Assembly (NCBI GenBank): GCA_035528375.1
Contig: DATKYS010000058.1
Span: 1-42,503 of the forward strand
Reading direction: 5' to 3'
DNA from: a bacterium
Lineage (GTDB): Bacteria; RBG-13-66-14
Length of the DNA stretch: 42,503 nt
Shown: positions 15,289 to 42,491 of the stretch, one piece after another
Layout: each line of letters starts with the position of its first letter
Position numbering within the stretch: the first letter of the stretch is position 1
Translations under genes and position numbers: made by a program
The notes under the pieces: generated by a model
Databases searched by the model: none
Told to the model about the DNA's origin: nothing
What the model saw: only the letters and a program-made list of their open reading frames with translations

Positions 15289-17076
15289 CTAGCTGTAAGC
15301 GGCGCAAACGGCGCGGACGATCACGGGGTCCACGTCGTACTTCACCAAAAACTCGCGCCGCTCCCGCAGCATCATCTCCACCCAGGCCCGGTACTCGTCC
15401 ATCCGCCCGGCCTTGGAGAAGAAGAGGACGGGATTTAATATCTCCACGGGAACCTTCGCCAGGAGCGCGGCGTTGGCGGGGTCGTCCACGTCCACAATCT
15501 CGTAGCCGAAGTCGGGGTCCTTCTTCCAGACGATTCCGCCCGAAAGCATGGCCTCGAGCATGGCGGAGGAATGGGGGATCTTCACCTTCAGCGCCTTCCC
15601 GGCCTTGACGTCCAGGGCGTCGCCGCCGACCCAGCCCGTGTTCATGGCCCAGCACACCACTCCGGGCATCGTGGCCACCAGCTCGGCGAAGCGCTTCGGC
15701 TGGAGCCCGTTCTGCTGGGGGAAGAAGGGCTGGGTGAATGGGCTGCGGGTCCGGCCGCGCTCCTTGCCGGCCGCCGAGGTCTTGGTCGTCTCGCCGAGCA
15801 TGAAGTAACCGCCGGCCTGTTCCGGGCTGACGAAGCGGATGATACCCGGGTAGGCCGCGTCGGGACCCTCGTCGCGGTTGAGGATGCCCATGTACTTGAG
15901 GGGCGGGATTTTATGCAGGTCGGCCGCGTTCTTTATCGCCTTCATCGGGATGATCGAGCGGCCGTTCTGCGTCCAGACGAGGAAATCCCAACCGTCGGCG
16001 GGGGTGTCGTACTGGTCCACCACCTCGTCTATTTGGACCTCGCCGCGGACGAACTTCTCCACGTTCCCGACGGGGGCCTTCGTGGCGATGAGGATGTCTC
16101 GGTATCGTTCGACCTCCTCCACGGTCAGGCGCTGTTTGCCGAAATCGAAGGTGCCCTCGGGATTTACGTAGATGTTCTCCGTCCAGGAGGTGGGGTCCAC
16201 CGTACCGGTGTAGATGACGGGCTCGGCCTCCTCGGTCAGCCCGTAGGTTTTGGCGAAGCAGCCGTTCTCGGTGATGGATATCTCGCCCCCGGGCCACAGG
16301 GTCACCATGTCGTCCTGGATGGGCTGGGTCAGCTCGCCCTGCTTGGAGAAGGTGGTGGTGGTCTTCCCGGTGCCGGAGAGGCCGAGGATGGCCATGGTAA
16401 CGGTCTTTCCGCCGATGGTCACCGCCTTGGCCCCGGCGTGGAGGGTCAGGCCGCCGCGCTGGTAGGTGTACTCGTTGAGCATGCGCAGGGCGCCCTTCTT
16501 GCTCTCACCGAAGTAATCCGCCCCGATGACGTAGGTGGTCCAGTTGTCCAGGTCCACGAGCATGGCCTGGCCGCCGGGCATCCCCTTCGCCTCCAGAGCC
16601 GGCGTCATGACCAGGCGGAAAGAGGGCTTGAAGGGCCGGGCGAGCTGCTCACCAGTCTCCACCATCTCCCGGGGGAAAGACAGAATCTGCTGCATGGCGG
16701 CGACGTTCGTTATGTCCAGGGTGTAGAGCCACTGTACGCCGACGGCGCGCGGGCCGAGACCTTCGTAGCCCTGTATGTCAATCAGTGTCCCCTTCTCCTC
16801 GACGTACTTCTCGACGCTCTCGATCAGGCAGGTGGCGGATTCGGGGTCAATGGTCTTCCCCGAGTAGCGACCGGCGTCGGACTCGACGGCGACGATGTAG
16901 GTGTACGGAGCCTTGCGGGCCTTGTTGAAGGTAATCTTGTTCAGGCTTCCGTAGGCGGTCTTCATCACCGCCGGGGTGTGCTCCAGGGCCAGCTGTCGGA
17001 GTTTATCCTGAGTCGGGTTGGTGATGTAGGTCACCTTGAAGGGGTGCAGCTCATCCATGGTAATGCGTGGACTCAT
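15289..17076 (-). CDS. pckA: Divergent ATP-type phosphoenolpyruvate carboxykinase
   Basis: 595 residues, longer than the usual 520-550. PEP carboxykinase interconverts oxaloacetate plus ATP with PEP plus CO2 and ADP, the first step of gluconeogenesis. The ATP-type P-loop GLSGTGKTTTT has its lysine at 238, followed by QDDMVTLW (kinase-2-like) and ENGCFAKTYGLTEEAEPVIY, which matches the family's GGCYAK region. GETTKTSAAGKERG also fits the ATP-type pattern. The N-terminal block that usually reads TGRSPKDK appears here as YSGKTIDPES, so the substrate-binding arginine is not in its normal setting. GGAG precedes the ATG. The gene is alone, divergent from the methyltransferase, with its own terminator. 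Confidence 0.88.
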   Translation of the reverse strand: MSPRITMDELHPFKVTYITNPTQDKLRQLALEHTPAVMKTAYGSLNKITFNKARKAPYTYIVAVESDAGRYSGKTIDPESATCLIESVEKYVEEKGTLIDIQGYEGLGPRAVGVQWLYTLDITNVAAMQQILSFPREMVETGEQLARPFKPSFRLVMTPALEAKGMPGGQAMLVDLDNWTTYVIGADYFGESKKGALRMLNEYTYQRGGLTLHAGAKAVTIGGKTVTMAILGLSGTGKTTTTFSKQGELTQPIQDDMVTLWPGGEISITENGCFAKTYGLTEEAEPVIYTGTVDPTSWTENIYVNPEGTFDFGKQRLTVEEVERYRDILIATKAPVGNVEKFVRGEVQIDEVVDQYDTPADGWDFLVWTQNGRSIIPMKAIKNAADLHKIPPLKYMGILNRDEGPDAAYPGIIRFVSPEQAGGYFMLGETTKTSAAGKERGRTRSPFTQPFFPQQNGLQPKRFAELVATMPGVVCWAMNTGWVGGDALDVKAGKALKVKIPHSSAMLEAMLSGGIVWKKDPDFGYEIVDVDDPANAALLAKVPVEILNPVLFFSKAGRMDEYRAWVEMMLRERREFLVKYDVDPVIVRAVCAAYS

Positions 17077-21850: not shown

Positions 21851-24800
21851 ATGCCGCGTCTCCATCCGCTCATCTGCGCATTTCTCCTGGCCCTCCTCGC
21901 GCCGGCCGCCCGAGGTGACGCCCCCGAGGCGGAGGAGCCCGAGACGTTCCCCCTGCCCGAGCCGGTTCAAATCACCACCCAATTTTCCTTCGAGTCTTCC
22001 CCGGCGGTCAACCGCGGGGACAACCGGCTCGCCTTCGTCTCCGATTCGAGCGGGAACTCGGACATCTGGCTCATGGACCTGGAGAGCCGCGGGCTCACCC
22101 AGCTCACGACCAACACCGCCGACGATTACAACCCGGTCTGGTCGCCCGACGGAACGAAAATCTACTTCACCAGCACCCGCGACGACCCCGAGGGCGAGAT
22201 TTACTGCTACAGCATCGAGCTGGGCTTCACCACGCGGCTGACGAACCACCTGGGCCGTGATGAGACCCCCGTACCCACACCCGACGAGAACTACATCTAC
22301 TTCACCCGGTCGGAGCCCGCCGACTACCGGCCCCCTCCCGGGGCGGTGGACGCCGAATGGGAACCGTCACCGAACCTGGCCAACGTCTACCGGGTGGAGC
22401 GGACGGGCGAGGGGCTCCAGCGCATCACCGAGGCGGGCGGCGCCAACCCGACCCTCTCCCCCGACGGGTCCTGGCTGTGCTACATCGTCCCCGGAGTGGG
22501 CGGCAGCACCCTGGAGGCCAGGCGGCTCTCGGACGGCGTTCGGAGAACCCTGGTGTCCGAGGCGGGGGTCATGGTCCGGCCGCGTTGGAGACCCGAGGGT
22601 ATCCTCTTCACCCGCTTCGCCCTGGACACGAACTCCGACGGCGTGGTGGACACCCTGGACAACGCCCAGCTCTGCTTTTTGGAAGCGGAGCCGCTGCGGC
22701 GCATCCTCGAGGGCGGGTTGCCCGGCGCCGCCGCGGCCGACCGTCTGAGACCCGGGCAGGCGGTCTACCGCCGCCTCACCACGGGCGCCAACTGGGACGG
22801 CTTCGCCGACACAGACGGCGTTCTCGTCTACTTCAGCTCCGACCGCTCCACCAACGGCGACATCTGGAGTATGCCGCTCGCGCTTCCCGAGCTGCCGAAA
22901 AACCCCTCCACCGCCCTGCGTCTGGCGCGGGGAGTCGTCGAGGACCCCATCGCCCGACTTTTGGCCTTCACCCTTTTCGTGGACACCTACTACCGCCAGG
23001 AGGACCTGGCCGCCCGGGCCCAGCTCGAGCTCGCCTCCGACATGGAGAACCTCGGCTGGAGCCGACAGGCCGGGATCGAGCGCGCGGGAGTGGTCGGCCG
23101 CTGGCCGGGAGGCATCACCGCCGGGGCGGCGAGCGTGCTGTCCAAGCTCCAGCAGGAGTGGCTCGGGGCCATCTACTTCGACCAGCTTCCCGCGGCTTAC
23201 CGGTACGTGGACGAGGGCCGGACGGTGGAGGAGCTGACCCCCGATCTCCTGGCCCGCGCGCGGGACCTGGCGGCGGAAACCGTGGAGTACGTTCCAGAGG
23301 TCGCCTGCGGCAGCCTCGTCCTGGCCGGGGACGTCCTCTACCGGGTGGGCAGGGTGGGGGAGGCGCTGGAGAGCTACGACACGGCCGCTCGTATCGGCTC
23401 CGATTTCAGTCTGCGCGCCGAGGCGGACTTCAAGGCGGCCCGCTCCCTGGAGCGGATGGGTCGCCACGATGAGGCCCGGGACCGTTACCTCTACGTCCTC
23501 ACGAACTACCCCGCCGAGAAGAGGTGGCAGAACCTGACCCAGCGCGATCTGGTGAACCTCACCGTGGGCAACATGCGGGACGTGGAGCGGATAGTGGCCC
23601 TGGAGAAGATGACCCGCGATTTCGCCGACTACCCCGAGCTGGCCGGCTACGCCCAGGGCCAAATCGGCGACGAGCTCAGGCGGATGGGCCAGGAGGAAGA
23701 GACCCTGGTCGCTTACCGCGAGGTGCTGAAGGGTTACCCGCGGGCGAGTTTCCTCGTGGTGAGCGTTCTTTTCAAGATAGCCGAAGTGGAAAAGGAGCTC
23801 GGACGCCCCGAGGAGGCCGCGACGGCCCTCGAGCGCATCGTGGGTTCCTACGGCGAGCTTTCGGGGGGGTTGGAATCCATCCGCGCCTCCCAGACCCTCC
23901 GCCGGCTCCTGTTGGAGGAAGCGGACGGTTATCGGCAGCGCAACGACCTCCAGCGCGCCGAGGCGCTCATCCGCCGCGCCATGAACTTCGATTACTCCAA
24001 CGACCGGGTCCACCACGCCCTGGTAAAACTCTACTGCGAGGACATGGGTAAGCGGGGCGACATCGTACGGGAGTACCGGGACCGCCTCCGGGACCATCCC
24101 GACGACCCCATCGCCCGTTACGCCCTCGGGCTGGCCCTGACCTACCCCTCCACCGGCCCGGGGAGCGGGATCAACTACGGGGAGCTGTACGAGGCGGAGG
24201 ACGAGCTCCACCGGGCGGTGAACCTCCGCTTCGTTTTTCCGGCCGCCTGGTTCACCCTGGGCTGGATCGAGCTCGAACGCGCCGTCAGGGAGAGGGGGGA
24301 TGACAACGAGCAGGAGGCCGGCGATCTTCTGGAGCATGCGCTGGATTACCTGAGCCTCGCCCGCGCCCAGAACGACGAGGCGGAGTACCCGGACTTCGAG
24401 GCCGACATCGAGCTGCTCCTCGGCAACGCCAGCTACCTGTTGTACAACTTCGGCCCGGCCTACGAGCACTACCAGAGGCGCGAGGAGCTGATGACCGAGC
24501 CCCGCGGGGCGGAGGTGGAAGCGCGCTACCACTTCAACGCCGGCCGCTGCGCCCGCCACACCGAGAACTACCCCGAGGCGGTCCGGCACTACGGGACCGC
24601 CCGGGACATCTTCGCCGAGATGGGCAACGACGTGGGCGTCCTCATGTGCACCGACGGCCAGGCCCTGGTCTATTTCGAACAGGAAGCCTACGACAAGGCG
24701 CTGACTTGCTTCATCCAATCCGCCGACCTTTACGGCCGGGTGGCCCAGAGGGAGGAGGCCGCCGCCGCCGATCTGCCGGACATCGGCGACCGCACCCGCG

Positions 24801-27800
24801 CCGCCGAGAGGGCCCTGGCCGCCCGCGCCAAGCGCTCCTACGCTCTTCGAAACATCGGCATCTGCTACTACTTCCTCCAGCTCTACGCCGACGCCCTCGA
24901 CTACTTCCAGCAGACGCTCGACGTCCTGGAGCAGCTCGGCCGGGCCCGGTACTCGACCGCCGGCAGCGGTCTGTTGGACTTCTCCTTCAGCGCGGGCCTG
25001 GTGGGCGATTCCTCGGAGGCGGCCAGGGGGTTCGACCTCGCCGGCGAGAAGGAGCTCATCTACACCTTCGCGGCCAAGTGCCATTCCCGCCGGGGGGACT
25101 ACCGCGCGGCCATCGCCTGCTACGAAGAGCGCCTGGCCCTCTTCGAGGAGACCTCCGGCGAGAAGAACGAGGAGGTGGCCTCCGCCGAGAGGGGGAGAAT
25201 CTTCAACCGGATCGGTTACCTCTCCTACAAGCTGGGCGACCTGGCCGAAGCGGCGAAGAACTACCTCGCCTCCATGAAGGCGTGCCTCGCGGGCGGCGCG
25301 TACCGGGGCGCGCTCGTGGCACTCTCCAACCTGGCGGAAATCGCCATGAACATCGCCGACCGGGTGCGCATGGAGGGGACACCCGTCGAGGAGCTGTTCC
25401 CCGATTGGGGGACGGACGGAGCGACGGGCGACCTCCACGGCATCGCCGCCGAGGTCCAGAGGGCGCTCGAGGAGTACGCCCCCAAACTTTACAGCGTGGC
25501 GGACCCGAAGCTCGGGGCGCGCATCGCCAACGCCCGCGGGCTCCTCCGTCTGTACCTCGCGGGCGACGACGAGACCCCGGTCGAGCGGTACGAACGCATA
25601 AGAAAGGCCGAAGCCGCCTTCTTCACCGCTCAGAGCGCCTACGAAACCCTGGGGGACGCCGCCGGTGCGGTGGCCTGTGAGCACAACCGGGGGGTGGCGC
25701 TGGTGCGGCTCGGCTTCGCCGAGGCGGAGAACCTCCTGCAGCGGGCGCGGGACCGGGCGAACCTCTTCGCCCTGGACCGGCTGTCCTGGCGGGCGAGCCG
25801 TTCCCTGGCCGAGCTCTACATCTCGCGCGGGGAACCCGGCCGGGCCAAGGTTTACCTGGAACAGGCCCTGGAAACGGTGGAGCGGGAAATCGGCCAGAAA
25901 ACCCAAACCGTGCCCCTCTCGGTGACCTTCGCCGAGATCCGCGACCTCTACGAGAAGATGGTGGTCCTGTCGGCCGACGCGGGGGCCGTCGAGGACGCGC
26001 TCCGCCTGGTTGACCGCGAACAGCAGGCGTACCTGGCAAGTATCTTCGCCGACCGGGAGCTCGAGCTGGCCAGCGAGATGGACAAGCTGTTCCTGGGCGA
26101 CGAGCTCTTCACCCAGGAGCGGATTTCCGACCTCAGCGACCGCATCTCCGCCGAAAGCCTCTCCGCGGACCCCGCGGTTACCGGGGAGCTCGATGAGCTG
26201 CGGCGGCAACTGGTGGACGAGCGGCTCCACTACCGTGAGATAGTCGAGGAGCAGCACGGTCGGAAACCCATCCTGACGGCCCTGGTGGGGGTTTATCCCA
26301 CCGGGCTCACGGAGGCTGAAGAGGTGCTGCGCGGGGGCGAGATTTTACTCACCTACTTCTTCGCCGGCGACGGCCTCTACGCCTGGCTCCTGGACTCCGA
26401 CGGCGTGCGGCAGTCGCGGATCGGGCTGAGCCGGGCGACGGCCCGGGAGCTGGTGGACCGGGCGGACGCCGGGGACGCAAGCGCCCTCGACGAGCTGGGG
26501 CACTTCCTCTTCTCCCCGTACGCGGGAGAGATAGGCGGGGCCCGGACCGTTTACATCGCGCCGGACGGCGTGCTCTGGCGCGTTCCCTGGCCCGCCCTTC
26601 CCGCGGGGGACGGCCGGCCCCTCGTCGAGACGACGCCGGTGGCGGTCGTGGCCTCCTTCTCCGAACTGACCTACTGCTACGAGGCCCGGAACGCGAGCTA
26701 CTCGAAACCGATGTTCTTCGTGGGCCGGGTCGGCGTTCCGGATTCGGCCCGCCAGGCCGCCCGGGAGCGAAGCGCGGAGGTTTCCGGCGACCTGGCCCCC
26801 TCCGACATCACCGAGTCGGAACTGGTGGAATCCATCACCTCGAAGGGCCACTTGGACATGACGGTGCCCCTCGAGTTCTCGGGCGGCGATCCGCTCTCCT
26901 TCGGTTTCCGCCTCTCCGAGGCACAATCCGGCCGCCTCGCCCGCCGGGACCAGGGGCTCCTGAACTTCAACGCCCTGTTGGGCAACACCCTCGACATCAA
27001 CGTCGTGAGCCTCAACGACACCGGAAACCGGATCGAGCTGGGTCCCGGCCTCGGGAGCGGTCTGGCCGTCCTTTGCCGATGCTTCACCTACGCCGGGGTG
27101 CCCAGCCTCATCTTCTCCCCCAACACGGCCGCCGACGGGGCGCGGAACCTCTTCGCGGATGCCTTCGCGCGCCGGCGGTTGAGCGAGCCGCCGGCCGAGG
27201 CGGTACGTCTGGCCCAGCTCGAGGTGCGGGAGAAGTACCCATCCGCGACGGACTGGGCCGGGGCGATGCTCCTGGGGTTCGCCGGGTTCTCCGACGCCGA
27301 GGCGCGTACCTTCGCCGAGGAGCAGTTCTCGAACACGGTCCGCTCGGCCCTGGCCTACCAGGGGGAGGGGGATTTCGAGACCGCCCTGTACCAGTTCCTC
27401 AAGGCCGCGGGGATGGCGGAGCGCCTGGGTGACGACGAGAAGAAGCTGCAGCTCTGGGGAGCCGCCGTCAGCGCCGCGCGCGATTCGGGGAAGCTGAATC
27501 TGGCGCTGGAGTACCAGGTGAAGCTCCTGGAGGCCGCCGGTGACCCGGTCTCCCGCGCCAAGGCCTACCGGCGTCTGAGCGCCCTGAAGGCGGAGGCCGG
27601 CGACCTGGACGCGGCGCTGGAGGCCAACGACGATTACCTGAGCGCCCTGGGCGAGTTGGGCGGGCCCGAGGTCGCCGCCCTGACCGACCCCTACCTCTCC
27701 GGCCACCTCGACCGCGCCCGCCTGCTGGTGCGCCTGTACCGCTTCGAGAATGCGGCGGAGGAGTACGACCTGGCCGCCGACCTGGCCGTGGGGGTCGAGC

Positions 27801-30163
27801 GCGAGGCGACGCGGGCCCAGGTAACGCTCGAGCTGGGGAACCTCTACCAGGCCAACCTGGACGATCAGGAGCGGGCCGAGGGCTACGCCGAGCTCAGCCG
27901 GCTGACCTTCGCCTCCCTGGGCGACCCGGTGGGTGAGGCGAGGGCCCTGGCGCTCCTGGGCTTCATCGCCACGGAGAAGGGCGACGTCTCCGCCGCCAGG
28001 GCGTACCACACCGAGGGCCTGGCCAAGGCGGAGAGGTACCCCGGCGAGCCCGACGCTCCAACGGCGCGTCTGGACAACCTCTTCGGCCTGGCCAAGGCGT
28101 ACTGGAAGGACCGGTCCTTCAAGGAATCCCTGGAGATAAGCCGAAAGGTTCTCGCGGAGCTGGGGGAGGACGGGCCGCCCGGCCTCATCGCCCGTTTCCT
28201 GGGCAGCGAGGCGCTGTCGCTCTTGGGGATGCGCCGGACCGACGAGGCGCTCACCGCGGCGACGACCGCCCTGGAGAGGGCCGTAGCCTCCGGCGACGCC
28301 CAGGAAACGGCCGCCGCCCACTCCAATCTGGGGCTCGTGTACCGTCTCAGCGGCCGCCTGGGCATCGCCCGCGTCCACTTCGAGGAGGCACTGGCCGAGG
28401 ACCAGCGGATAGGCTACTCCCAGGGAGTGTCGAACGACCTGCGGCACCTGGCCGCCGTCGCCGAGCTCGAGGGGAAGACCGCCGAGGCCGTCGCCTTCCA
28501 CGAGCGCTACCTGGCGGATGCGGACCTGACGAACCCGAGGACGATTTTGGGCTACTGCGACGTGGCTCGCCTGGTCCTCCCCGACGACCCCGCGAAGGCG
28601 GCCGACTGCCTGAATCGGGCCCGGAGGGGGGCGGTCGTCACCGGGCGGCCCGACCTCCTCTGGCGGATCCACCACCAGCTCAGCCGTCTGGCCGCCCACG
28701 GGGGAGACCGTCCGACGGCGCTGGCCGAGTTCAATCTGGCCCTGGACATCGTGCGGCAGGCCGCGCCCGAATCGCCACTCGCCGCCGCCCATCAGGGCAT
28801 CTTCGTCGGGCCCAAGCAGCTCTTCACCCACGGCATCGGGCTCGCCCTCGAGACCGGGGATTACGACCGGAGCCTCGAGCTGGAGGAAATCTGCCGCTCC
28901 GTCGTCGGCGAACGGACCCTGTTGGCGGCGGACATCCCCTGGCAAGACCCGGAGCTCGGGCGGGCCCTGGCCCGGTATACCGAGCTGTCCCGGCAGATTT
29001 CCCTCCTCCTCGGGGCGGAGAGCGACGCGGGGCCGGCCGGGGCGCTGGCGGAAGAGGAAAGGCTGGTCGGGGAGATAATCGAGCGCCGGCCCGCCTTCGC
29101 CGGGGTCGTCGGGAAAACGGCGACGGCGGAGGAAATCATCCGGGGCGTCGGCGACCGTCGGGTAGCCCTGGTCTATCACCTGGACGGTGACCGCCTCTGG
29201 AGCTGGCTGGTGGACGGCGACGGGGTCAGGGTCGTCGAGAGGCCGGCACAGGCCGCCCGGAGCTCCGCCCGGGAGCTGACCACCCTCTTCACCTCCCGCG
29301 GCGACCAGACCCGTTTCGACGAGCTCGCAGCCGCCCTGGCCGCCGAGGTCATCGGTCCCTGGGCCGACGTGCTCGACGCGGCGGACGTGGACGAGCTGTT
29401 GATCATCCCCGACGGCGAGCTCGCCTACGTGCCCTTCGCCGTCCTGCCCTTCGGGAGCGGCTGCCTGCTGGACCGCTTCTCGCTGGCCTACGCCCCGAGC
29501 TTCACCGCCTGGCTCTCGCCCGTAAACGACGCCTACGGCGAGCTGCCGCTGGTCAGCTTCGCCAACCCGACCACGGGAAACCCCCGGGACGACCTTCCCT
29601 TCGCCGAGAAGGAAGCGGAGAGCATCGCCGGCCTGTTCCCCGGCGGACCGGCCCCGTTCACCGGCCAGGCCGCCCTGGAGAGCCGCTACGACGAGCTGGC
29701 CGGTCGGGCCCGTCGGCTGCACCTGGCCACCCACACCCGGCTCGTGCCGGGCGACCCGCTCTCATCCGCCCTTTTGCTGACTCCGGCGGAGGGGGAGGAC
29801 GGTGCGACACCCGCGAACGATGACGGCCTGCTCACCGTGAGGGAGATTCTCGCCCTGCCCCTGGAATGCGAGCTTGCGGTCCTCTCGGCCTGCGAGACGG
29901 CGGTGCCCGAGGGGGCCGACGGTCTGGAGTTCCTTTCTCTGGCGCGGGCCTTTCTCTTCGCCGGGGCGGACGCCGTGGCCGCCACCTTCTGGCGTACTTC
30001 GGACATCGCCACCGCCATCACCGTCCGCAACCTCTTCCTGGGCCTCGCCGACGGGCTCCCGCCCGCCGAAGCGCTCCGGCTGGCCCAGCTCTCGACTCGG
30101 GAGAATTTTGCCAGCCCGGCGTACTGGGGCGGTTTCGGCGTCTTCACCCACGCCTCGCCATGA
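21851..30163 (+). CDS. Giant exported PD40-TPR protein with a dead and an intact CHAT protease domain
   Basis: 2,770 residues from ATG at 21851, chosen because a signal peptide starts there (LHPLICAFLLALLAPAARG); the frame is open back to 21701. Residues of about 48-350 are a TolB/PD40-type propeller (SGNSDIWLMDLES, WSPDGTKIYFTS). About 380-1470 is a long array of TPR-like helical repeats. About 1470-1815 is a first CHAT (caspase-like, HetF-associated) domain whose catalytic pair is lost: the HLATH-type histidine is T1671 (HLDMTV) and the LSACET cysteine is N1722 (SLNDTG). About 1820-2400 is more TPR. About 2430-2770 is a second CHAT domain with an intact pair, H2628 in HLATHT and C2681 in LSACET. 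The solenoid plus dead and live protease order recalls separase. Targets unknown; probably periplasmic or surface-located. Confidence 0.92.
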   Translation: MPRLHPLICAFLLALLAPAARGDAPEAEEPETFPLPEPVQITTQFSFESSPAVNRGDNRLAFVSDSSGNSDIWLMDLESRGLTQLTTNTADDYNPVWSPDGTKIYFTSTRDDPEGEIYCYSIELGFTTRLTNHLGRDETPVPTPDENYIYFTRSEPADYRPPPGAVDAEWEPSPNLANVYRVERTGEGLQRITEAGGANPTLSPDGSWLCYIVPGVGGSTLEARRLSDGVRRTLVSEAGVMVRPRWRPEGILFTRFALDTNSDGVVDTLDNAQLCFLEAEPLRRILEGGLPGAAAADRLRPGQAVYRRLTTGANWDGFADTDGVLVYFSSDRSTNGDIWSMPLALPELPKNPSTALRLARGVVEDPIARLLAFTLFVDTYYRQEDLAARAQLELASDMENLGWSRQAGIERAGVVGRWPGGITAGAASVLSKLQQEWLGAIYFDQLPAAYRYVDEGRTVEELTPDLLARARDLAAETVEYVPEVACGSLVLAGDVLYRVGRVGEALESYDTAARIGSDFSLRAEADFKAARSLERMGRHDEARDRYLYVLTNYPAEKRWQNLTQRDLVNLTVGNMRDVERIVALEKMTRDFADYPELAGYAQGQIGDELRRMGQEEETLVAYREVLKGYPRASFLVVSVLFKIAEVEKELGRPEEAATALERIVGSYGELSGGLESIRASQTLRRLLLEEADGYRQRNDLQRAEALIRRAMNFDYSNDRVHHALVKLYCEDMGKRGDIVREYRDRLRDHPDDPIARYALGLALTYPSTGPGSGINYGELYEAEDELHRAVNLRFVFPAAWFTLGWIELERAVRERGDDNEQEAGDLLEHALDYLSLARAQNDEAEYPDFEADIELLLGNASYLLYNFGPAYEHYQRREELMTEPRGAEVEARYHFNAGRCARHTENYPEAVRHYGTARDIFAEMGNDVGVLMCTDGQALVYFEQEAYDKALTCFIQSADLYGRVAQREEAAAADLPDIGDRTRAAERALAARAKRSYALRNIGICYYFLQLYADALDYFQQTLDVLEQLGRARYSTAGSGLLDFSFSAGLVGDSSEAARGFDLAGEKELIYTFAAKCHSRRGDYRAAIACYEERLALFEETSGEKNEEVASAERGRIFNRIGYLSYKLGDLAEAAKNYLASMKACLAGGAYRGALVALSNLAEIAMNIADRVRMEGTPVEELFPDWGTDGATGDLHGIAAEVQRALEEYAPKLYSVADPKLGARIANARGLLRLYLAGDDETPVERYERIRKAEAAFFTAQSAYETLGDAAGAVACEHNRGVALVRLGFAEAENLLQRARDRANLFALDRLSWRASRSLAELYISRGEPGRAKVYLEQALETVEREIGQKTQTVPLSVTFAEIRDLYEKMVVLSADAGAVEDALRLVDREQQAYLASIFADRELELASEMDKLFLGDELFTQERISDLSDRISAESLSADPAVTGELDELRRQLVDERLHYREIVEEQHGRKPILTALVGVYPTGLTEAEEVLRGGEILLTYFFAGDGLYAWLLDSDGVRQSRIGLSRATARELVDRADAGDASALDELGHFLFSPYAGEIGGARTVYIAPDGVLWRVPWPALPAGDGRPLVETTPVAVVASFSELTYCYEARNASYSKPMFFVGRVGVPDSARQAARERSAEVSGDLAPSDITESELVESITSKGHLDMTVPLEFSGGDPLSFGFRLSEAQSGRLARRDQGLLNFNALLGNTLDINVVSLNDTGNRIELGPGLGSGLAVLCRCFTYAGVPSLIFSPNTAADGARNLFADAFARRRLSEPPAEAVRLAQLEVREKYPSATDWAGAMLLGFAGFSDAEARTFAEEQFSNTVRSALAYQGEGDFETALYQFLKAAGMAERLGDDEKKLQLWGAAVSAARDSGKLNLALEYQVKLLEAAGDPVSRAKAYRRLSALKAEAGDLDAALEANDDYLSALGELGGPEVAALTDPYLSGHLDRARLLVRLYRFENAAEEYDLAADLAVGVEREATRAQVTLELGNLYQANLDDQERAEGYAELSRLTFASLGDPVGEARALALLGFIATEKGDVSAARAYHTEGLAKAERYPGEPDAPTARLDNLFGLAKAYWKDRSFKESLEISRKVLAELGEDGPPGLIARFLGSEALSLLGMRRTDEALTAATTALERAVASGDAQETAAAHSNLGLVYRLSGRLGIARVHFEEALAEDQRIGYSQGVSNDLRHLAAVAELEGKTAEAVAFHERYLADADLTNPRTILGYCDVARLVLPDDPAKAADCLNRARRGAVVTGRPDLLWRIHHQLSRLAAHGGDRPTALAEFNLALDIVRQAAPESPLAAAHQGIFVGPKQLFTHGIGLALETGDYDRSLELEEICRSVVGERTLLAADIPWQDPELGRALARYTELSRQISLLLGAESDAGPAGALAEEERLVGEIIERRPAFAGVVGKTATAEEIIRGVGDRRVALVYHLDGDRLWSWLVDGDGVRVVERPAQAARSSARELTTLFTSRGDQTRFDELAAALAAEVIGPWADVLDAADVDELLIIPDGELAYVPFAVLPFGSGCLLDRFSLAYAPSFTAWLSPVNDAYGELPLVSFANPTTGNPRDDLPFAEKEAESIAGLFPGGPAPFTGQAALESRYDELAGRARRLHLATHTRLVPGDPLSSALLLTPAEGEDGATPANDDGLLTVREILALPLECELAVLSACETAVPEGADGLEFLSLARAFLFAGADAVAATFWRTSDIATAITVRNLFLGLADGLPPAEALRLAQLSTRENFASPAYWGGFGVFTHASP

Positions 30164-30802: not shown

Positions 30803-32008
30803 ATGCTCACCCACAAGCTTCTATTTATCATGGTGTTGGCGGCATCGCTCACCTCCGCCGAGCTCGACCGGCCCCGGTACGTCTGGTCGGAACTCTACGA
30901 GCCGGGCATCGAAATCGTCGGCGAGGGTTACGAGCTCCAATGGATGCCGTGGACCGACGCCGCCGTCCTGGAGCGGCACGGCCGGACCTTCGAGCTGGCG
31001 ATGGACGAGTACGGCCTTCTCCTGGGATGCCTCGACGGCTACATCTACTTCGGCCGACGGGGGGACGAGACGGACCCGACCGATCTGCGTATCCGGCGCA
31101 TGCACCTGGACGACGCCGACATGGGCTTCTTCGTGGACATGTATGAACTGACCGTCCCTTCGTACTACTCGGACTTCGCCCTGTCGCCGGAGGGGGACCG
31201 GCTCGCCGTGGCCGTCGGCGGCGACGAGCACCGGGTGGACGTAACCGTCTACGGCCTGGGGCGGGAGTGCGAGGTCCTCCAGGAGCGGACCTTCCCCGTG
31301 GAGACGAACCAGATCCGGGTCAGCGTCCACCTGCTCGAGTGGTCCGACGACGGGGAGTCCCTCTACCTGAACTTCCACCCCCACTCCCCGGCCTCGGACG
31401 AGTTCCTCGACCTGCAGCCGCTCCTGCGCTGGAATCTGGTGACCGACACGGTGACCGAGGTGCTGGGCGAGGTCGGGTGGATCCTCCCCGTCGCCGGACG
31501 GGACGGGCGGACGGTCGTTCTGGCCGAGGAGATGGTTGCCGCACCGGCCTCCTGGACCATGCCCTGGGGCTGCCACCCGGGTTTCCCGCCCTGGGGACTG
31601 GCCCGGTGGCAGGAGCTGGACCTGGCCACGGGGAAGCTGACCCCGATTATCTCCACCGATCCCCCCGGTGCCGAACGGCTGTTCGACGGCGACCTCCAAA
31701 CCGCGTGGCAGGGGAAAGTCGTCACCGTGGACCTGGGTCGGCCGCTGCCCCTCGACGGATTTTTGGTCGTCGGCGGTTACGACGAGGGCGGGGAGACCAC
31801 ACCGGGGGACACGGTAACCTGGGATACCTGGTTCGAGCTGGAGCCCCACGAGAGCCCCTACGAGTTGCGGGGGAGCACCGAGCGCATCCCCGTGGACGGC
31901 GTGGTGGAGACCGTGGAGCTCACCTGCTTTTCCAACGACCCGGAGCGGGAGGAGCAGGCGGTCACGGCGGAGCTAATACCACTCTTCGCCTTCTGGCCGG
32001 TGCCCTGA
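30803..32008 (+). CDS. Exported propeller-like protein with a C-terminal discoidin/NADase-glycan-binding-like domain
   Basis: 401 residues with a signal peptide (THKLLFIMVLAASLTSA), ATG preceded by GGGATTG. The N-terminal two-thirds has repeated beta segments typical of WD40/PD40-like propellers (YYSDFALSPEGDRLAVAVGG, HLLEWSDDGESLYLNF). From about 285 on the sequence RLFDGDLQTAWQGKVVTVDLG resembles discoidin or NADase-type glycan-binding domains, where a DGD..TAW motif starts a jelly-roll. I do not recognise a named family. It starts 10 bases after the cytochrome gene, so the three genes 21851-32008 appear to be one operon of exported proteins, and a promoter for alaS follows at once. Confidence 0.72.
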   Translation: MLTHKLLFIMVLAASLTSAELDRPRYVWSELYEPGIEIVGEGYELQWMPWTDAAVLERHGRTFELAMDEYGLLLGCLDGYIYFGRRGDETDPTDLRIRRMHLDDADMGFFVDMYELTVPSYYSDFALSPEGDRLAVAVGGDEHRVDVTVYGLGRECEVLQERTFPVETNQIRVSVHLLEWSDDGESLYLNFHPHSPASDEFLDLQPLLRWNLVTDTVTEVLGEVGWILPVAGRDGRTVVLAEEMVAAPASWTMPWGCHPGFPPWGLARWQELDLATGKLTPIISTDPPGAERLFDGDLQTAWQGKVVTVDLGRPLPLDGFLVVGGYDEGGETTPGDTVTWDTWFELEPHESPYELRGSTERIPVDGVVETVELTCFSNDPEREEQAVTAELIPLFAFWPVP

Positions 32009-37748: not shown

Positions 37749-38717
37749 ATGTCCACACGGGTGATGGTCGTTGACGATGACCCCGACATCCGCTCGATAG
37801 TCAAAACCGTATTCGAGGGCGATAACTACACGGTCAAGACCTGCCCCTCGGGCGAGGAGGCCCTGGAGCAGGTCAAGGTCTTCAACCCGGAGCTCATCGT
37901 CCTGGACGTGATGATGCCGGGGATGGACGGCTACCAGGTGTGCTCCGAGCTGAAGAAGGACTTCGAAACCGCCCACATCCCGGTGATTCTACTGACGGCC
38001 AAGCAGGACATCATAGACCTCGAGCGGGGCGTCGAGCACTCCATAGACGATTACATCGCCAAGCCCTTCTCCCAGCGGGAGCTCCTGGCCCGGGCGAAGA
38101 TGGTCCTGTCGCGCACGCGCTACCAGCTCGGCTGCAACCCGCTGACGGGCCTGCCGGGAAACCTGGAGATAGAGCACCGGCTCAAGGAGGTCATCCGCTC
38201 CGGCAAACCCTACTCCCTCTTCTACGCGGATATAGACCGGTTTAAAAGCTTCAACGACTACTACGGCTACGCCCGCGGCGATTCCATCATCCGCCTCCTC
38301 ACGCACTGCCTCGTCCAGGCCACCCGGGTGCTGGGCAAACCGAAGGACTTCGTCGGTCACATCGGCGGCGACGACTTCATGATGCTCTGCTATCACCAGG
38401 ACGCGGAGAAGCTGGCGAACCGGGTCATCGAGCTCTTCGGCGAAGGCGTGGGTGACTACTTCGACGAGACCGACCTGAAGCGGGATTACTACGAGATAAC
38501 GGACCGCACCGGTTGCCTGCGGCGGTATCCCGCAACGCTCACCCTGACCGTCGTGCTGGTGTCGAGCGAGAAGCGTCGCTTCGCCAACACCGCCGAGATT
38601 ACCGACATCGTCACCGAACTGAAGAAGTTCGGCAAGGGCAAACCGGGCAACATCGTGGTCCACGAGCGCCGGGGAAGTACGGAAGGCGACGCCGCGGCCC
38701 GGAAGGGCGAGTGTTAA
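37749..38717 (+). CDS. Response regulator with REC and variant GGDEF (GGDDF) domains
   Basis: 322 residues. REC domain at 1-120: DDD near the N-terminus, phospho-acceptor D53 in IVLDVMMPG, the LLTAK threonine and the conserved lysine in AKPF. A GGDEF-like domain fills about 130-300: NPLTGLPGN, YADIDRFKSFNDYYGYARGD, and GGDDF at 206-210 where active cyclases have GG[D/E]EF. The D for E change at the metal/catalytic position makes diguanylate cyclase activity uncertain, so it may bind GTP or c-di-GMP instead. No upstream RxxD inhibitory site is obvious. First of three response-regulator genes in a row; no histidine kinase is nearby. Confidence 0.9.
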   Translation: MSTRVMVVDDDPDIRSIVKTVFEGDNYTVKTCPSGEEALEQVKVFNPELIVLDVMMPGMDGYQVCSELKKDFETAHIPVILLTAKQDIIDLERGVEHSIDDYIAKPFSQRELLARAKMVLSRTRYQLGCNPLTGLPGNLEIEHRLKEVIRSGKPYSLFYADIDRFKSFNDYYGYARGDSIIRLLTHCLVQATRVLGKPKDFVGHIGGDDFMMLCYHQDAEKLANRVIELFGEGVGDYFDETDLKRDYYEITDRTGCLRRYPATLTLTVVLVSSEKRRFANTAEITDIVTELKKFGKGKPGNIVVHERRGSTEGDAAARKGEC

Positions 38718-38938: not shown

Positions 38939-39331
38939 ATGTCGAAGATAATGATCGTGGACGACGAGCGGCACATCGTCGAAACGCTCTGTCTGGCCTT
39001 CGAGAAACGGGGTTACCAGGTCGTGGGCGTGTCCGACGCGACGCTGTGCGTCCCCCTCGCCGACCGGGAAAAACCCGACGTCATCATCCTCGATGTCATG
39101 ATGCCCGGGATGGACGGCTACGAGGTGCTCAACCGTCTGGGCGAGGACGACCGGGTGTCGCGCATCCCGGTGATCGTCCTCACCGCGAAGCCCGACGAGA
39201 TTTACCGACGCATCAGCGAGGGAATAGGCGCCAAACTGCATCTGACCAAACCCTTCAAACCGTACGCGGTGGTCGAGCAGGTGGAGCGCATACTCGACGA
39301 GCGCAAGGGTGTCCCGACGGCCCAGCCGTGA
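38939..39331 (+). CDS. Single-domain response regulator
   Basis: 130 residues, one REC domain and no output domain. DDE follows IMIV at the N-terminus, the phospho-acceptor is D52 in ILDVMMPGMDG, LTAKPD gives the conserved threonine, and LTKPFKP the lysine. Such proteins pass phosphate in relays or act by direct binding, as CheY and Spo0F do. The opening IMIVDDERHIVETL is identical to that of the next gene, so the two are recent paralogues. The nearest sensor kinase is outside the window. Confidence 0.92.
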   Translation: MSKIMIVDDERHIVETLCLAFEKRGYQVVGVSDATLCVPLADREKPDVIILDVMMPGMDGYEVLNRLGEDDRVSRIPVIVLTAKPDEIYRRISEGIGAKLHLTKPFKPYAVVEQVERILDERKGVPTAQP

Positions 39332-39380
39332 ACCATGAGGCGGGCACGGGCGTTCGGTGATGTGCCGGAGAGGAGTCCGC

Positions 39381-39764
39381 ATGGCCCGGATCATGATCGT
39401 GGACGACGAGCGGCACATCGTCGAGACGCTGGGGCTCGCCTTCAAGAGCCGGGGGCATGACACTATCTCCCTCTCCGACCCCGCCACCGTCCTGAGCGCG
39501 GCGATGAGGGAGCGACCCGACGCCATCATCCTGGACCTCCTCATGCCGGGCATAGACGGCTACAAACTGTACCACGACCTGATGGCCGACGAGCTTTTGT
39601 CTTCGACCCCCGTCGCCATAATTACGGGTCACTCGGGACCGCTCTACGAGAGAATCAGCCGGGAGATAGGCATCGCGCTGCACCTGACCAAGCCCTTCAA
39701 TCCCCTCGATGTGGTCAAACGCATCGAGAAGCTGATAGCTCCGGGTCCCGGGGGTACACCCTAA
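39381..39764 (+). CDS. Single-domain response regulator, paralogue of the previous gene
   Basis: 127 residues from ATG at 39381, with GGAG and AGGAG upstream; the frame is open from 39357. REC features are all present: DDE, phospho-acceptor D52 in ILDLLMPGIDG, the ITGH threonine and LTKPFNP lysine. It shares the first 14 residues after MAR with its neighbour and LHLTKPF near the end, pointing to tandem duplication. The 49-base gap and same strand suggest co-transcription. It lies 51 bases before a membrane transporter gene, which it might regulate through a relay, but that is speculation. Confidence 0.92.
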   Translation: MARIMIVDDERHIVETLGLAFKSRGHDTISLSDPATVLSAAMRERPDAIILDLLMPGIDGYKLYHDLMADELLSSTPVAIITGHSGPLYERISREIGIALHLTKPFNPLDVVKRIEKLIAPGPGGTP

Positions 39765-39815: not shown

Positions 39816-41588
39816 TTGGCCCACGAGATTGTCGGCATCCTGAGCCTTCTCGTTTTCGTCTTCACCGTCCTGGGTCCGCTGATCATGGTGGGCGGACGAA
39901 GGCTGATCCCGCTTCCGCTTCAGACCCTGCTGGTCGCCGGCGCGCTGGTGAACATCGTCCTGACCGTCCTGGCGATCTGGCTGGACGGCGGGTCCCTCAA
40001 CGAGATGCTCTCCCTGGGCTCGGCGGTGGGGTCCAACGTCATCCTCCTGCCCATCATGGCCATGGCCGGCGGCTTCCTGGTCGCCGGTGCTTTGGAGGGC
40101 TCGGGGGGCTTCGCCGCGCTGCGCGTCGTCATCAACAAGATGCGCGGCACCCCCCTGGGCATGGCGGGCACCCTGGTCTTCATCGCCCAGTTCTCCACCA
40201 TTTTCGCCATGCCCTGCGGGCGGATTCAGGCGGCGGCGCTCCTGCCCGTCATCATCACCCTCGGCCCCGAGGGCGTGCGACTGATCACGAAGAAACAGAT
40301 GGTGGTCCTGGTCACGGCACTGGCGGTCAACGCCGCGGCCAGTTGCGGACCCAGCCAGATCGGCGGCATCGGACAGATCGGCGAGGGCTTCCTCCAGCAG
40401 CTCGGATTCCTGACCAGCTCCCAGGAGTTCGGGATAATGATCGGCACCGCCTTCACCGCGCTCTTCATCAGCCTCTTCGTCACCCGGTTCGACATGGAGG
40501 AGAAGATACGGCTCACAGAGGGCCGGCAGCTCGCCCAGAGCCTGGGCGCCGCTTCGACCTCCGACGCCACCCTGGCCCAGACGCACGACGAGGAGGTCAT
40601 CGCCCGGAAGTTCAAGGCGCCCCTCGTCGGTTACATCTCCCTGGTCATCTTCCTGGTGGCCCTCATAGGGGCGGTCTTCGGGCTCTTCGGCAAGACCCCG
40701 ATCACCACCACCCTCCTGGTGGCCACGGTCGTCATCATGCTCATCGCCCGGCTCTCCATCCGCCAGGTCATCGCCGGGATCATCCTCCACCCCATCACCG
40801 CCCTGGTGGCCGGGTTTTTGATGGCCGGCTCGCTGGTGGTCTCGGGCGGGTTCAAGTCGCTGAGCCAGGTGCTCGTCTGGCTGTCGGAGTTCAAGGTCGC
40901 CGGGGTCGGTCTGGGCGTGGCGGGCATGATAGCCCTCTTCGTCCAGATCGAGACCATCATGCCCATGCCCTGCGGGCGGATTCTGGCGGCGGCGCTCCTG
41001 CCCATTGTGGTGGCCATGGGGCCGGCCACCGGCTGGATGCCCAACGCCTCGGGTCTTCTCACCTACAACCAACTGGCCATCGTGCTGGCCGCCTTCATCG
41101 TCAACGCGGCGGCGAGCTGCGGCCCCAGTCCCATCGGCGGCATCGGCACCATCTCCGAGGGGATGGTGCGCTCCGAGATAGGATACCTGCGCAACGCCCA
41201 GAGCTACGGCATCATGGCGGCCATGACCCCTCTGGCGGCGCTGGTGATGCGCTTCTGGGTGCTCGCCCACAACCCCTTCTCCCTGGAGAACCTGCTCATC
41301 TTCTTCGGCCTCCTAGCCGGGATAATCGTGTTCAATCTGGGGATGATCAAGTTCATCAATCCCGCCACGTTCAAGAAGCGGCGCACGCCGACCCAGGAGA
41401 AGGAGAAGAACTTAGCCACCTGGATCACGTTCCTGTTGGGCGGCGCCGTCTCGGGCATGGTCATCACCTTCGCGCTGTTCTGGCCCGACCAGGCCTCGGG
41501 CTTCGTCAGCTCCGGACCCTTCTTCGTGTACCTCTTGCAGGGGGCCGTCGGCGGGACCATCGCCGGAGCCCTGCTCCTCTTGACCTAG
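39816..41588 (+). CDS. Polytopic membrane transporter with internal duplication
   Basis: 590 residues from a TTG start with GGAG 6-9 bases upstream. About a dozen hydrophobic segments. The two halves are clearly related: MPCGRIQAAALLPVIITLGP (from 132) against MPCGRILAAALLPIVVAMGP (from 384), and NAAASCGPSQIGGIGQIGEG (from 172) against NAAASCGPSPIGGIGTISEG (from 430). A two-fold repeat with small-residue hairpins in the middle of each half is typical of ion-transporter-superfamily carriers for organic anions or sodium exchange, but I cannot assign a named family or substrate. A separate C-terminal hairpin domain (from W536) resembles the small protein encoded next. Confidence 0.83.
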   Translation: MAHEIVGILSLLVFVFTVLGPLIMVGGRRLIPLPLQTLLVAGALVNIVLTVLAIWLDGGSLNEMLSLGSAVGSNVILLPIMAMAGGFLVAGALEGSGGFAALRVVINKMRGTPLGMAGTLVFIAQFSTIFAMPCGRIQAAALLPVIITLGPEGVRLITKKQMVVLVTALAVNAAASCGPSQIGGIGQIGEGFLQQLGFLTSSQEFGIMIGTAFTALFISLFVTRFDMEEKIRLTEGRQLAQSLGAASTSDATLAQTHDEEVIARKFKAPLVGYISLVIFLVALIGAVFGLFGKTPITTTLLVATVVIMLIARLSIRQVIAGIILHPITALVAGFLMAGSLVVSGGFKSLSQVLVWLSEFKVAGVGLGVAGMIALFVQIETIMPMPCGRILAAALLPIVVAMGPATGWMPNASGLLTYNQLAIVLAAFIVNAAASCGPSPIGGIGTISEGMVRSEIGYLRNAQSYGIMAAMTPLAALVMRFWVLAHNPFSLENLLIFFGLLAGIIVFNLGMIKFINPATFKKRRTPTQEKEKNLATWITFLLGGAVSGMVITFALFWPDQASGFVSSGPFFVYLLQGAVGGTIAGALLLLT

Positions 41589-41593
41589 GGGGG

Positions 41594-41755
41594 ATGCTGC
41601 AAGCCGGCGTTTTACTGACCTGGATCTCCTTTCTGCTGGGCGGCGCTTTCTCCGGGGCGGTGATCGCCTATGCCCTGGATTTCCGCACGCGAAAGGGCCT
41701 CCTGCAGGGGGCCCTGGGCGGGATCATCGCGGCGATTCTGTACATGATAACCTGA
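41594..41755 (+). CDS. 53-residue membrane protein resembling the C-terminus of the preceding transporter
   Basis: ATG at 41594 follows GGGGG and lies 5 bases after the transporter stop codon. Two hydrophobic helices (LLTWISFLLGGAFSGAVIAY and LLQGALGGIIAAILYMI) align well with the transporter's last 55 residues (WITFLLGGAVSGMVITFALF ... YLLQGAVGGTIAGALLLL). It is therefore a free-standing copy of that domain, probably a small subunit or a duplicated helix hairpin. Good start signal, tight spacing and clear homology make it real despite its size. Confidence 0.78.
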   Translation: MLQAGVLLTWISFLLGGAFSGAVIAYALDFRTRKGLLQGALGGIIAAILYMIT

Positions 41756-41846: not shown

Positions 41847-42491
41847 ATGGCGAAAAAGAATAACAAAGACGAGCGGATCGTTTACGGTCCACCCCGCGAC
41901 GAGATCGAGGTTCTGCCCGGCGTCCGGCGCTACCAGTTCATCTCCAAGTCCCAGCACCGGATGCTCACCAAGAACCTCAACCGCATCGCCATGGTCATCA
42001 TCGGCCTCAGCCTATCCATCGTCATCTTCAAGGCGATTTTCTCGGGCACCGGCTACTCGGTTTACTGCCTGGAGGATCGCAGCTGCATGAGGGTGCTCTC
42101 CCAGCCCGAGGGGGAGAACTGCCCCGAGTACATCTACCCGGTGGAAATGGTCGTCGCGTCGCGGACGGCCGACTACGCGCGGTTTATCCGCCAGGGCGGG
42201 CTGCGCTGCACACAGTGCGGCAACTGCACCAAGTGGTGCATTTTGGAGATAAACATCCCCGAGGTGGCGGCCCGGATGCAGGAGCTGACCCTGGAAGCCC
42301 TGGCCGAGGGCAAGATTGACGCCGGGCTCGTCCTCAACGAGGGCTTCGTGGACCCGCAGAGCCTGGAGCCGCTGACCGACGCGGCCGCCCTCGCCCGCTA
42401 CTCTAAACCGGGCTACGAGAAAGTGCTCGCGCTCTACAACGAGATGAAGGCCATCATCAGGGAGAGGGAGGTGAGCGTTGCCGTCCGCTAG
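41847..42491 (+). CDS. Membrane-anchored protein with one [4Fe-4S] motif
   Basis: 214 residues. A basic, soluble N-terminus is followed by one transmembrane helix at about 44-66 (IAMVIIGLSLSIVIFKAIFS). C121, C124, C127 and C131 form CxxCxxCxxxC (RCTQCGNCTKWC), a ferredoxin-type site for a single cluster, with a helical tail. The lack of proline after the last cysteine and the single cluster set it apart from ordinary ferredoxins; it is reminiscent of HdrC/GlpC-like electron-transfer pieces. Two more cysteines around 75-80 and one near 92 lie on the outer side of the helix. Position between a transporter and another gene start suggests a membrane redox complex. Function unknown. Confidence 0.75.
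   Translation: MAKKNNKDERIVYGPPRDEIEVLPGVRRYQFISKSQHRMLTKNLNRIAMVIIGLSLSIVIFKAIFSGTGYSVYCLEDRSCMRVLSQPEGENCPEYIYPVEMVVASRTADYARFIRQGGLRCTQCGNCTKWCILEINIPEVAARMQELTLEALAEGKIDAGLVLNEGFVDPQSLEPLTDAAALARYSKPGYEKVLALYNEMKAIIREREVSVAVR

Follow-up and report, generated by a model that had tools for sequence, protein, structure and literature searches.

Near the end of a 42,503-nucleotide stretch of DNA (hereafter the window) from an uncultured bacterium of Candidatus Coatesbacteria lies an ORF that starts with TTG, is preceded by GGAG, and encodes a transporter-like membrane protein (Table 1). An earlier note on this DNA named response regulators and an Fe-S membrane protein as its neighbors. These are present: a response regulator-GGDEF protein and two further response regulators, together with a transmembrane protein that has Fe-S motifs. 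Absent from that note is a 53-amino acid ORF between the transporter gene and the Fe-S gene, whose product resembles the C terminus of the transporter (46.6% over 58 columns, E 5e-12). The contig ends after the Fe-S gene, and the respiratory gene context described below, also absent from the earlier note, lies mostly beyond the window.

Table 1. Features at the transporter locus, in window positions.
Feature	Position	Strand	Remarks
Response regulator-GGDEF protein	37749..38717	+	Upstream; seen only beside family-f1 transporters
Response regulator	38939..39331	+	Upstream of transporter
Response regulator	39357..39764	+	Directly upstream of transporter
IT-fold transporter-like protein, 590 aa	39816..41588	+	ORF; fold from predicted models; 14 homologues
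Motif 1 copy 1, MPCGRIQAAALLP, residues 132-144	40209..40247	+	Predicted hairpin tip; C134 and R136 invariant
Motif 2 copy 1, NAAASCGPSQIGGIGQIGEG, residues 172-191	40329..40388	+	Predicted broken helix; C177 and E190 invariant
Motif 1 copy 2, MPCGRILAAALLP, residues 384-396	40965..41003	+	Predicted hairpin tip; C386 and R388 invariant
Motif 2 copy 2, NAAASCGPSPIGGIGTISEG, residues 430-449	41103..41162	+	Predicted broken helix; C435 and E448 invariant
C-terminal two-helix glycine-rich module, residues 533-590	41412..41585	+	Helices 533-555 and 569-589 in model; outside IT core
53-aa two-helix membrane protein, paralogue of transporter C terminus	41594..41755	+	Profile/phmmer matches; alignment A4
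Membrane-anchored Fe-S protein, family A3	41847..42491	+	Weak Fer4 matches; invariant cysteines

Several other ORFs in the window deserve mention. One at 21851-30163 (+) encodes a 2770-residue protein with a PD40 beta-propeller, many TPRs, and a C-terminal CHAT domain. Another at 15289-17076 (-) encodes a PEP carboxykinase-like protein that matches PF01293 in two stretches, the best being residues 18-319 of 595, so that the best family stretch covers just part of the protein. Two more, at 11033-12823 (-; 596 amino acids) and 30803-32008 (+; 401 amino acids), have no Pfam match at E 1e-5.

Internal duplication and predicted fold

The earlier note reported two motifs that each occur twice, 252 to 258 residues apart, and took them to indicate a duplicated fold. 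The first, MPCGRIxAAALLP, starts at residue 132 and again at 384, a spacing of 252, and the second, NAAASCGPSxIGGIGxIxEG, at residue 172 and again at 430, a spacing of 258. The duplication spans almost all of each half: the N- and C-terminal halves align with 122 bits (E 2e-38, 36% identity over 242 columns), and their local score of 354 compares with a maximum of 106 among 500 locally shuffled controls. Judged from these alignments, the duplication that the earlier note had supposed is far beyond chance. It is detectable in all 14 homologous sequences that we aligned (alignment A2), whose halves score 75.5-123 bits against each other, whereas the halves of 29 PF03600-type transporters reach at most 53.5 bits. 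This yardstick was drawn from 30 loci (L065-L094), all from the matches of one Pfam family, and omits L084 because no suitable ORF was read there. The NAAASC and PCGR sequences common to both halves raised the idea of concerted evolution in family f1, which was rejected: of 91 scored columns, agreement was restricted to the f1 halves in 4 and to the other halves in 6.

Pfam yields only CitMHS (PF03600) for the window protein, with 18.8 bits against a gathering cut-off of 31.9 (E 0.00096), and two homologues match the same family weakly (28.6 and 25.9 bits). CitMHS is thus the best Pfam match, yet the new family is without its D-N/S-N hairpin motif. Rnf-Nqr (PF02508) is absent from the Pfam matches of the window protein at E up to 1, no NCBIfam cut-off is reached, and a sequence search of the PDB with this protein found no match. 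A profile comparison by hhalign with 29 CitMHS-family members gives E 1.1e-4 over residues 5-365, with a probability of only 56%.

AlphaFold2 models, each built on 14 related sequences, were obtained for the window protein (pLDDT 62.7, pTM 0.65) and for its orthologue L050 (pLDDT 74.0, pTM 0.79). Both show the inverted repeat with one hairpin and one broken helix per half that characterizes the IT fold, in agreement with the hairpin motif that the earlier note assigned to each half. In VIA-align comparisons the L050 model matches NaS1 (Z 21.5, rmsd 3.7, 409 aligned residues), NaDC3 with succinate (Z 20.7, rmsd 4.2, 415 aligned), Pho90 (Z 18.4), LaINDY, AtDiT1, and ArsB (Z 16.2 each), and VcINDY (Z 14.1). 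Scores are lower for TRAP transporters (12-13), YdaH (10.4), and MtrF (9.1), and fall to at most 8.2 for nucleoside transporters and 5.8 for unrelated folds. Ranks 1-39 among the matches listed are all IT-superfamily structures or a MleN model, and they include the C4-dicarboxylate carriers VcINDY, NaDC, DiT, and LaINDY. The model of the window protein likewise matches IT-superfamily structures; beyond approximately residue 490 it has extra helices outside the IT core. A viral structure library gave a single weak IT-like match, to the DUF401 protein of Ralstonia phage RP12 (E 3.8e-3).

The predicted structures therefore clearly assign the window protein to the IT superfamily, of which DASS/SLC13, Pho90, and ArsB lie closest to it. 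The earlier note had described a transporter with no obvious family, and listed the IT superfamily among those worth checking. Its duplicated transporter fold stands, as does the lack of a named family above cut-off; what has changed is that a superfamily can be assigned, whereas a known family and substrate cannot. No description of such a family was found within the limited set of papers searched.

The earlier note saw a cysteine in each motif, which is accurate and understated. The window protein has no cysteines besides these four, and none of the four varies among the 14 homologues; each half has two, at pseudo-symmetric positions. The complete set of invariant pseudo-symmetric pairs is C134/C386, R136/R388, N172/N430, S176/S434, C177/C435, S180/S438, and E190/E448. 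In both predicted models the copies of motif 1 fall at the re-entrant hairpin tips and those of motif 2 at the broken helices. In L050 numbering, C126 lies between helices 107-122 and 127-139, C170 follows helix 152-168, C361 precedes helix 362-375, and C404 follows helix 386-402. The hairpin tips read [PS]C[GS]R in all 14 homologues and have lost both SNT motifs, the presence of which at both tips marks the Na+ symporters of DASS/SLC13. R136 and R388 each lie two residues past a tip cysteine. In a profile alignment with 29 IT members R136 aligns with the Asn of the hairpin motif, and C134 falls two residues earlier; an alignment gap nearby limits this equivalence to within a residue or two. 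The sole invariant Asp, D250, is in the linker, and none is found in the hairpin or broken-helix motifs of the 14 homologues.

These positions can be compared with those of better known carriers. According to available parts of the VcINDY report, the Na1 clamshell consists of one hairpin tip and loop L5ab and the Na2 clamshell of their symmetry mates, with SNT motifs at the tips and the substrate between the clamshells (PMC9098524). The exchanger LaINDY carries Arg159 and His392 at the Na1 and Na2 sites, and the accessible text proposes these residues as Na+ surrogates (PMC7553777). The new family may resemble such exchangers in placing an Arg near the Na1-type site; no conserved His is found near the second hairpin tip among the 14 aligned homologues. 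In general, DASS/SLC13 proteins (VcINDY, LaINDY, NaDC1/3, NaCT, NaS1, and DiT) and Pho90 share the predicted fold over ~410 residues (Z 11-21) and the inverted repeat, with motifs at hairpin tips and broken helices. However, identity is only 9-14%, and the four invariant cysteines, the extra C-terminal helices, and the separate paralogue gene set the family apart. ArsB shares the IT fold, has also lost SNT, and lacks a Na+ site; its own site is described, in the portion of that work at hand, as Asn plus other polar residues rather than cysteine (PMC13381914), and its gene context is different. No cysteine in a DASS or ArsB binding site is described in the available portions of these three papers (PMC7553777, PMC9098524, PMC13381914).

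Distribution and gene neighborhood

Three loci bearing the name Candidatus Coatesbacteria match with best-segment identities of 93, 86, and 77%, so that the window's genome lies near this group. Of 14 genomes from the window's phylum, 10 have a full-length homologue, as do 4 of 7 from a second small phylum. A broad sample gave full-length matches in 12 of 386 genomes, and a sample around genome G327 gave them in 5 of 385, in both cases all within the two phyla. Marginal fragment matches in G118 (E 8e-4) and G370 (E 2e-4; matched again in the second sample) were left uncounted. A tblastn search of 72,556 plasmid records detected no homologue of the window protein. The family is so far found only in Candidatus Coatesbacteria and this one other phylum. 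With one genome per species from just two small phyla, the co-occurrence counts given below reflect few independent events.

In one genome, G012, the transporter gene is split and repeated at scaffold gaps (L046 ~9041 and L052 ~6772), probably reflecting either faulty assembly or a second copy that has diverged. A 97-amino acid fragment at 894.8 kb was considered as a paralogue and rejected: it breaks off at a run of N, and 267 bp of it match the start of the copy at 475 kb with 92.9% identity, a copy that is itself preceded by a run of N. We excluded this fragment from all counts.

The short paralogue of the transporter C terminus (~50 amino acids) and the Fe-S protein A3 are each found in 13 of the 14 transporter genomes, G012 being the one in which they were not found, and also in G013. 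The paralogue gene directly adjoins the transporter in 9 of 14 cases, and in G388 it begins another contig. In the broad sample, A3 is found in 12 of 386 genomes. G013 (78% complete) keeps the paralogue together with the Fe-S set (L051:9838-10646), and neither the transporter nor C6, a protein described below, was found there. This retention hints that the 50-amino acid protein serves the Fe-S complex by itself.

Neighborhoods were read in loci L041-L052, L099, L101-L104, and L109-L114, and the names of neighbors rest on Pfam and NCBIfam matches that are mostly below equivalog cut-offs. The QrcC-like protein scores 200.8 against a cut-off of 200 for DsrO; other Qrc-like, NapH-like, and TfrA/FrdAB-like neighbors fall below theirs. 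In the second phylum the gene order, complete in L048 and L050, is NHL-repeat protein, C6, transporter, 50-amino acid paralogue, Fe-S transmembrane protein, membrane polyferredoxin, QrcC-like, NrfD, QrcB-like, multiheme cytochrome, C8, FrdB-like, and FrdA-like. Here C6 has one transmembrane segment and a CxxC domain, and C8 is HdrC-like with two 4Fe-4S sites and a transmembrane helix. In G002, from the window's genus, the transporter is followed by the 50-amino acid gene, the Fe-S protein, an FMN_bind polyferredoxin, at least two short ORFs around runs of N, and then C8, FrdB-like, and FrdA-like genes. The window's own genome, G000, has these last three genes on another contig; beyond them come two further ORFs and then two that were taken for cytochrome b-type proteins from their N-terminal sequence. 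In family f3 the transporter comes after a fumarase-beta-type gene, an NHL gene, and C6, with the 50-amino acid gene and Fe-S set ~7-12 kb further on. The fumarase/tartrate dehydratase beta-type gene opens the run in all three f3 loci, of which the L043 copy was scanned (PF05683, 201 bits; NF005310, 258 against a cut-off of 238).

The FrdA-like flavoprotein retains its catalytic motifs (QYHPTG, LITE, EPRD, LHY, and HGxNR) in all four aligned copies. Every one of the 14 transporter genomes has a close orthologue (in pieces in G003, G004, and G388), compared with 2 of 7 others, namely G005 (70% complete) and G013; the remaining five have only distant matches of at most 231 bits. In f3 and f5 the gene is located elsewhere in the genome. 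All 14 transporter genomes have C8, as against 1 of 7 others (Fisher 1.3e-4, ignoring phylogeny). The C6 gene immediately precedes the transporter gene in 7 of 14 loci, and its CxxC is invariant in eight of eight aligned copies, the eighth being near the G012 fragment. Family f1 has only distant C6 copies elsewhere, in G000-G005 but not G006.

Some of these neighbors have features of their own. C6 (L043:9312-9668 and relatives, alignment A5) matches no Pfam family above cut-off. FrdA-like proteins of the window's genus (L041:14525-16333 and L109:5353-7164) carry an N-terminal helix-hairpin-helix insertion (PF12836, scanned in L041) that the second-phylum copies lack. Among seven copies of the membrane polyferredoxin viewed, those of Coatesbacteria (L041, L042, L044, and L051) have a SGAT/TGAT flavinylation-type motif, and those of the second phylum (L047, L048, and L050) are without it.

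QrcB/QrcC/NrfD-like, FMN_bind polyferredoxin, and TfrA-like neighbors are held in common with QrcABCD, flavinylated NapH-like, and TfrA/FrdAB systems, although the second-phylum polyferredoxin departs from the flavinylated NapH-like systems in its missing motif. The characterized representatives of these systems are not known to include an IT-fold protein.

Possible functions

We consider the chances evenly balanced that the window protein is a Na+-independent C4-dicarboxylate exchanger of the IT superfamily, representing a new DASS-like family that serves fumarate respiration. It would be an elevator-type secondary transporter with two inverted repeats and an extra C-terminal two-helix module. 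The tips and helix breaks of both halves might surround one central, nearly symmetric site, in which R136 and R388 would replace Na+ ions, as proposed for Arg159 and His392 of LaINDY, and so make exchange independent of Na+. The substrate would most likely be a C4-dicarboxylate, with fumarate or malate entering and succinate leaving, and exchange would feed the FrdAB-like enzyme and the respiratory complex encoded alongside. The invariant cysteines would lie along this site, acting either as ligands or as a redox switch. The fold, the Arg that would stand in for cations, the preserved FrdA-like motifs, and the fumarase gene together favor this proposal. Against it, four invariant cysteines are not needed for a dicarboxylate site and are left unexplained by such an exchanger. 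Sequence comparison also gives no family-level match and indicates that both SNT motifs are gone. Moreover, the fumarase gene is adjacent in f3 only, the FrdA-like gene can lie apart from the transporter (f3 and f5) or occur without it (G005 and G013), the co-occurrence comes from two phyla, and the Qrc-like complex and multiheme cytochromes suit other donors and acceptors equally.

An electron carrier is less likely than a fumarate/succinate exchanger. We think it unlikely that the protein is a redox subunit whose four cysteines hold an Fe-S cluster or a single metal on the pseudo-twofold axis in the membrane. Like the 2Fe-2S center between NqrD and NqrE, this site would link FrdB/HdrC-like Fe-S proteins of the cytoplasm electronically with the FMN-type polyferredoxin and periplasmic Fe-S partners. 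The proposal gains from the number, invariance, and symmetry of the cysteines, and from surrounding genes that encode Fe-S, FMN-binding, and multiheme proteins. The parallel with NqrD and NqrE (or RnfA and RnfE) is strikingly close: the excerpted report describes these as homologous, with 37% identity and two conserved cysteines each that bind a 2Fe-2S cluster at the twofold axis, and with FMN and Fe-S partners (PMC9325719), and the halves of the new protein are 36-41% identical. However, NqrD and NqrE are separate subunits, neither a sequence nor a fold match to them was seen, and a cluster in the IT-fold protein is only putative. Rnf/Nqr structures do not appear among the 50 matches listed per structure search (Foldseek and VIA-align) for either model, although this excludes nothing. 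R136/R388 and E190/E448 would be unusual near a buried cluster, and an elevator fold carries a mobile site. In addition, true Rnf-Nqr subunits (PF02508) are encoded elsewhere in 9 of the 14 transporter genomes and are missing from 5. The two were considered as mutually exclusive, which these nine genomes contradict, so the IT-fold protein does not simply replace Rnf. Slightly more doubtful is the bolder proposal that an elevator-transporter fold has turned into a redox protein. Each of its two nearly symmetric halves would give two cysteines, one at a hairpin tip and one at a broken helix, to an intramembrane Fe-S cluster, and the protein would conduct electrons across the membrane for a new respiratory complex, perhaps with coupling to ions, in convergence with NqrD/NqrE and RnfA/RnfE.

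Less probable again is an ion-translocating module (an H+ or Na+ antiporter of the NhaD/CitMHS sort) on a respiratory complex and driven by electron flow, with the C-terminal module and its 50-amino acid paralogue as docking pieces. The weak CitMHS match, the tight linkage to respiratory genes, and the near-constant presence of the paralogue, beside Fe-S genes even in G013, are consistent with such a module. However, R136 and R388 would occupy the former cation sites, the hairpin and broken-helix motifs offer no invariant Asp, and G012 has the transporter, with neither A3 nor the paralogue found there.

The least likely candidate is a carrier in which the cysteines would bind a thiophilic metal, a metalloid, or a sulfur species such as a thiosulfate- or persulfide-like anion, beside a respiratory complex that uses sulfur or metal compounds. 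It would fit the cysteines at the presumed site, the adjacent CxxC protein C6, the Qrc/DsrO/Ttr-like neighbors, and a fold shared with sulfate carriers such as NaS1 and with the arsenite pump ArsB, but no gene for metal resistance or a sulfur-specific enzyme was identified nearby, and the fumarase and FrdA-like neighbors point elsewhere. According to the accessible part of its report, ArsB uses polar side chains to bind As(OH)3 and has Asn111 and Asn337 where the SNT motifs would be (PMC13381914), and therefore a thiophilic cargo appears to need no cysteine in the IT fold, which counts against such a carrier.

If the window protein is a carrier, such as the C4-dicarboxylate exchanger preferred here, the IT superfamily would include a family that builds both of its cation/substrate sites anew, with Cys-x-Arg instead of Ser-Asn-Thr. 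Its halves are unusually symmetric, and it would be linked to fumarate respiration and occur only in phyla of which little is known. If instead the cysteines bind a cluster, then a transporter fold can become an electron carrier, and this family would represent a second origin of the NqrD/NqrE design.
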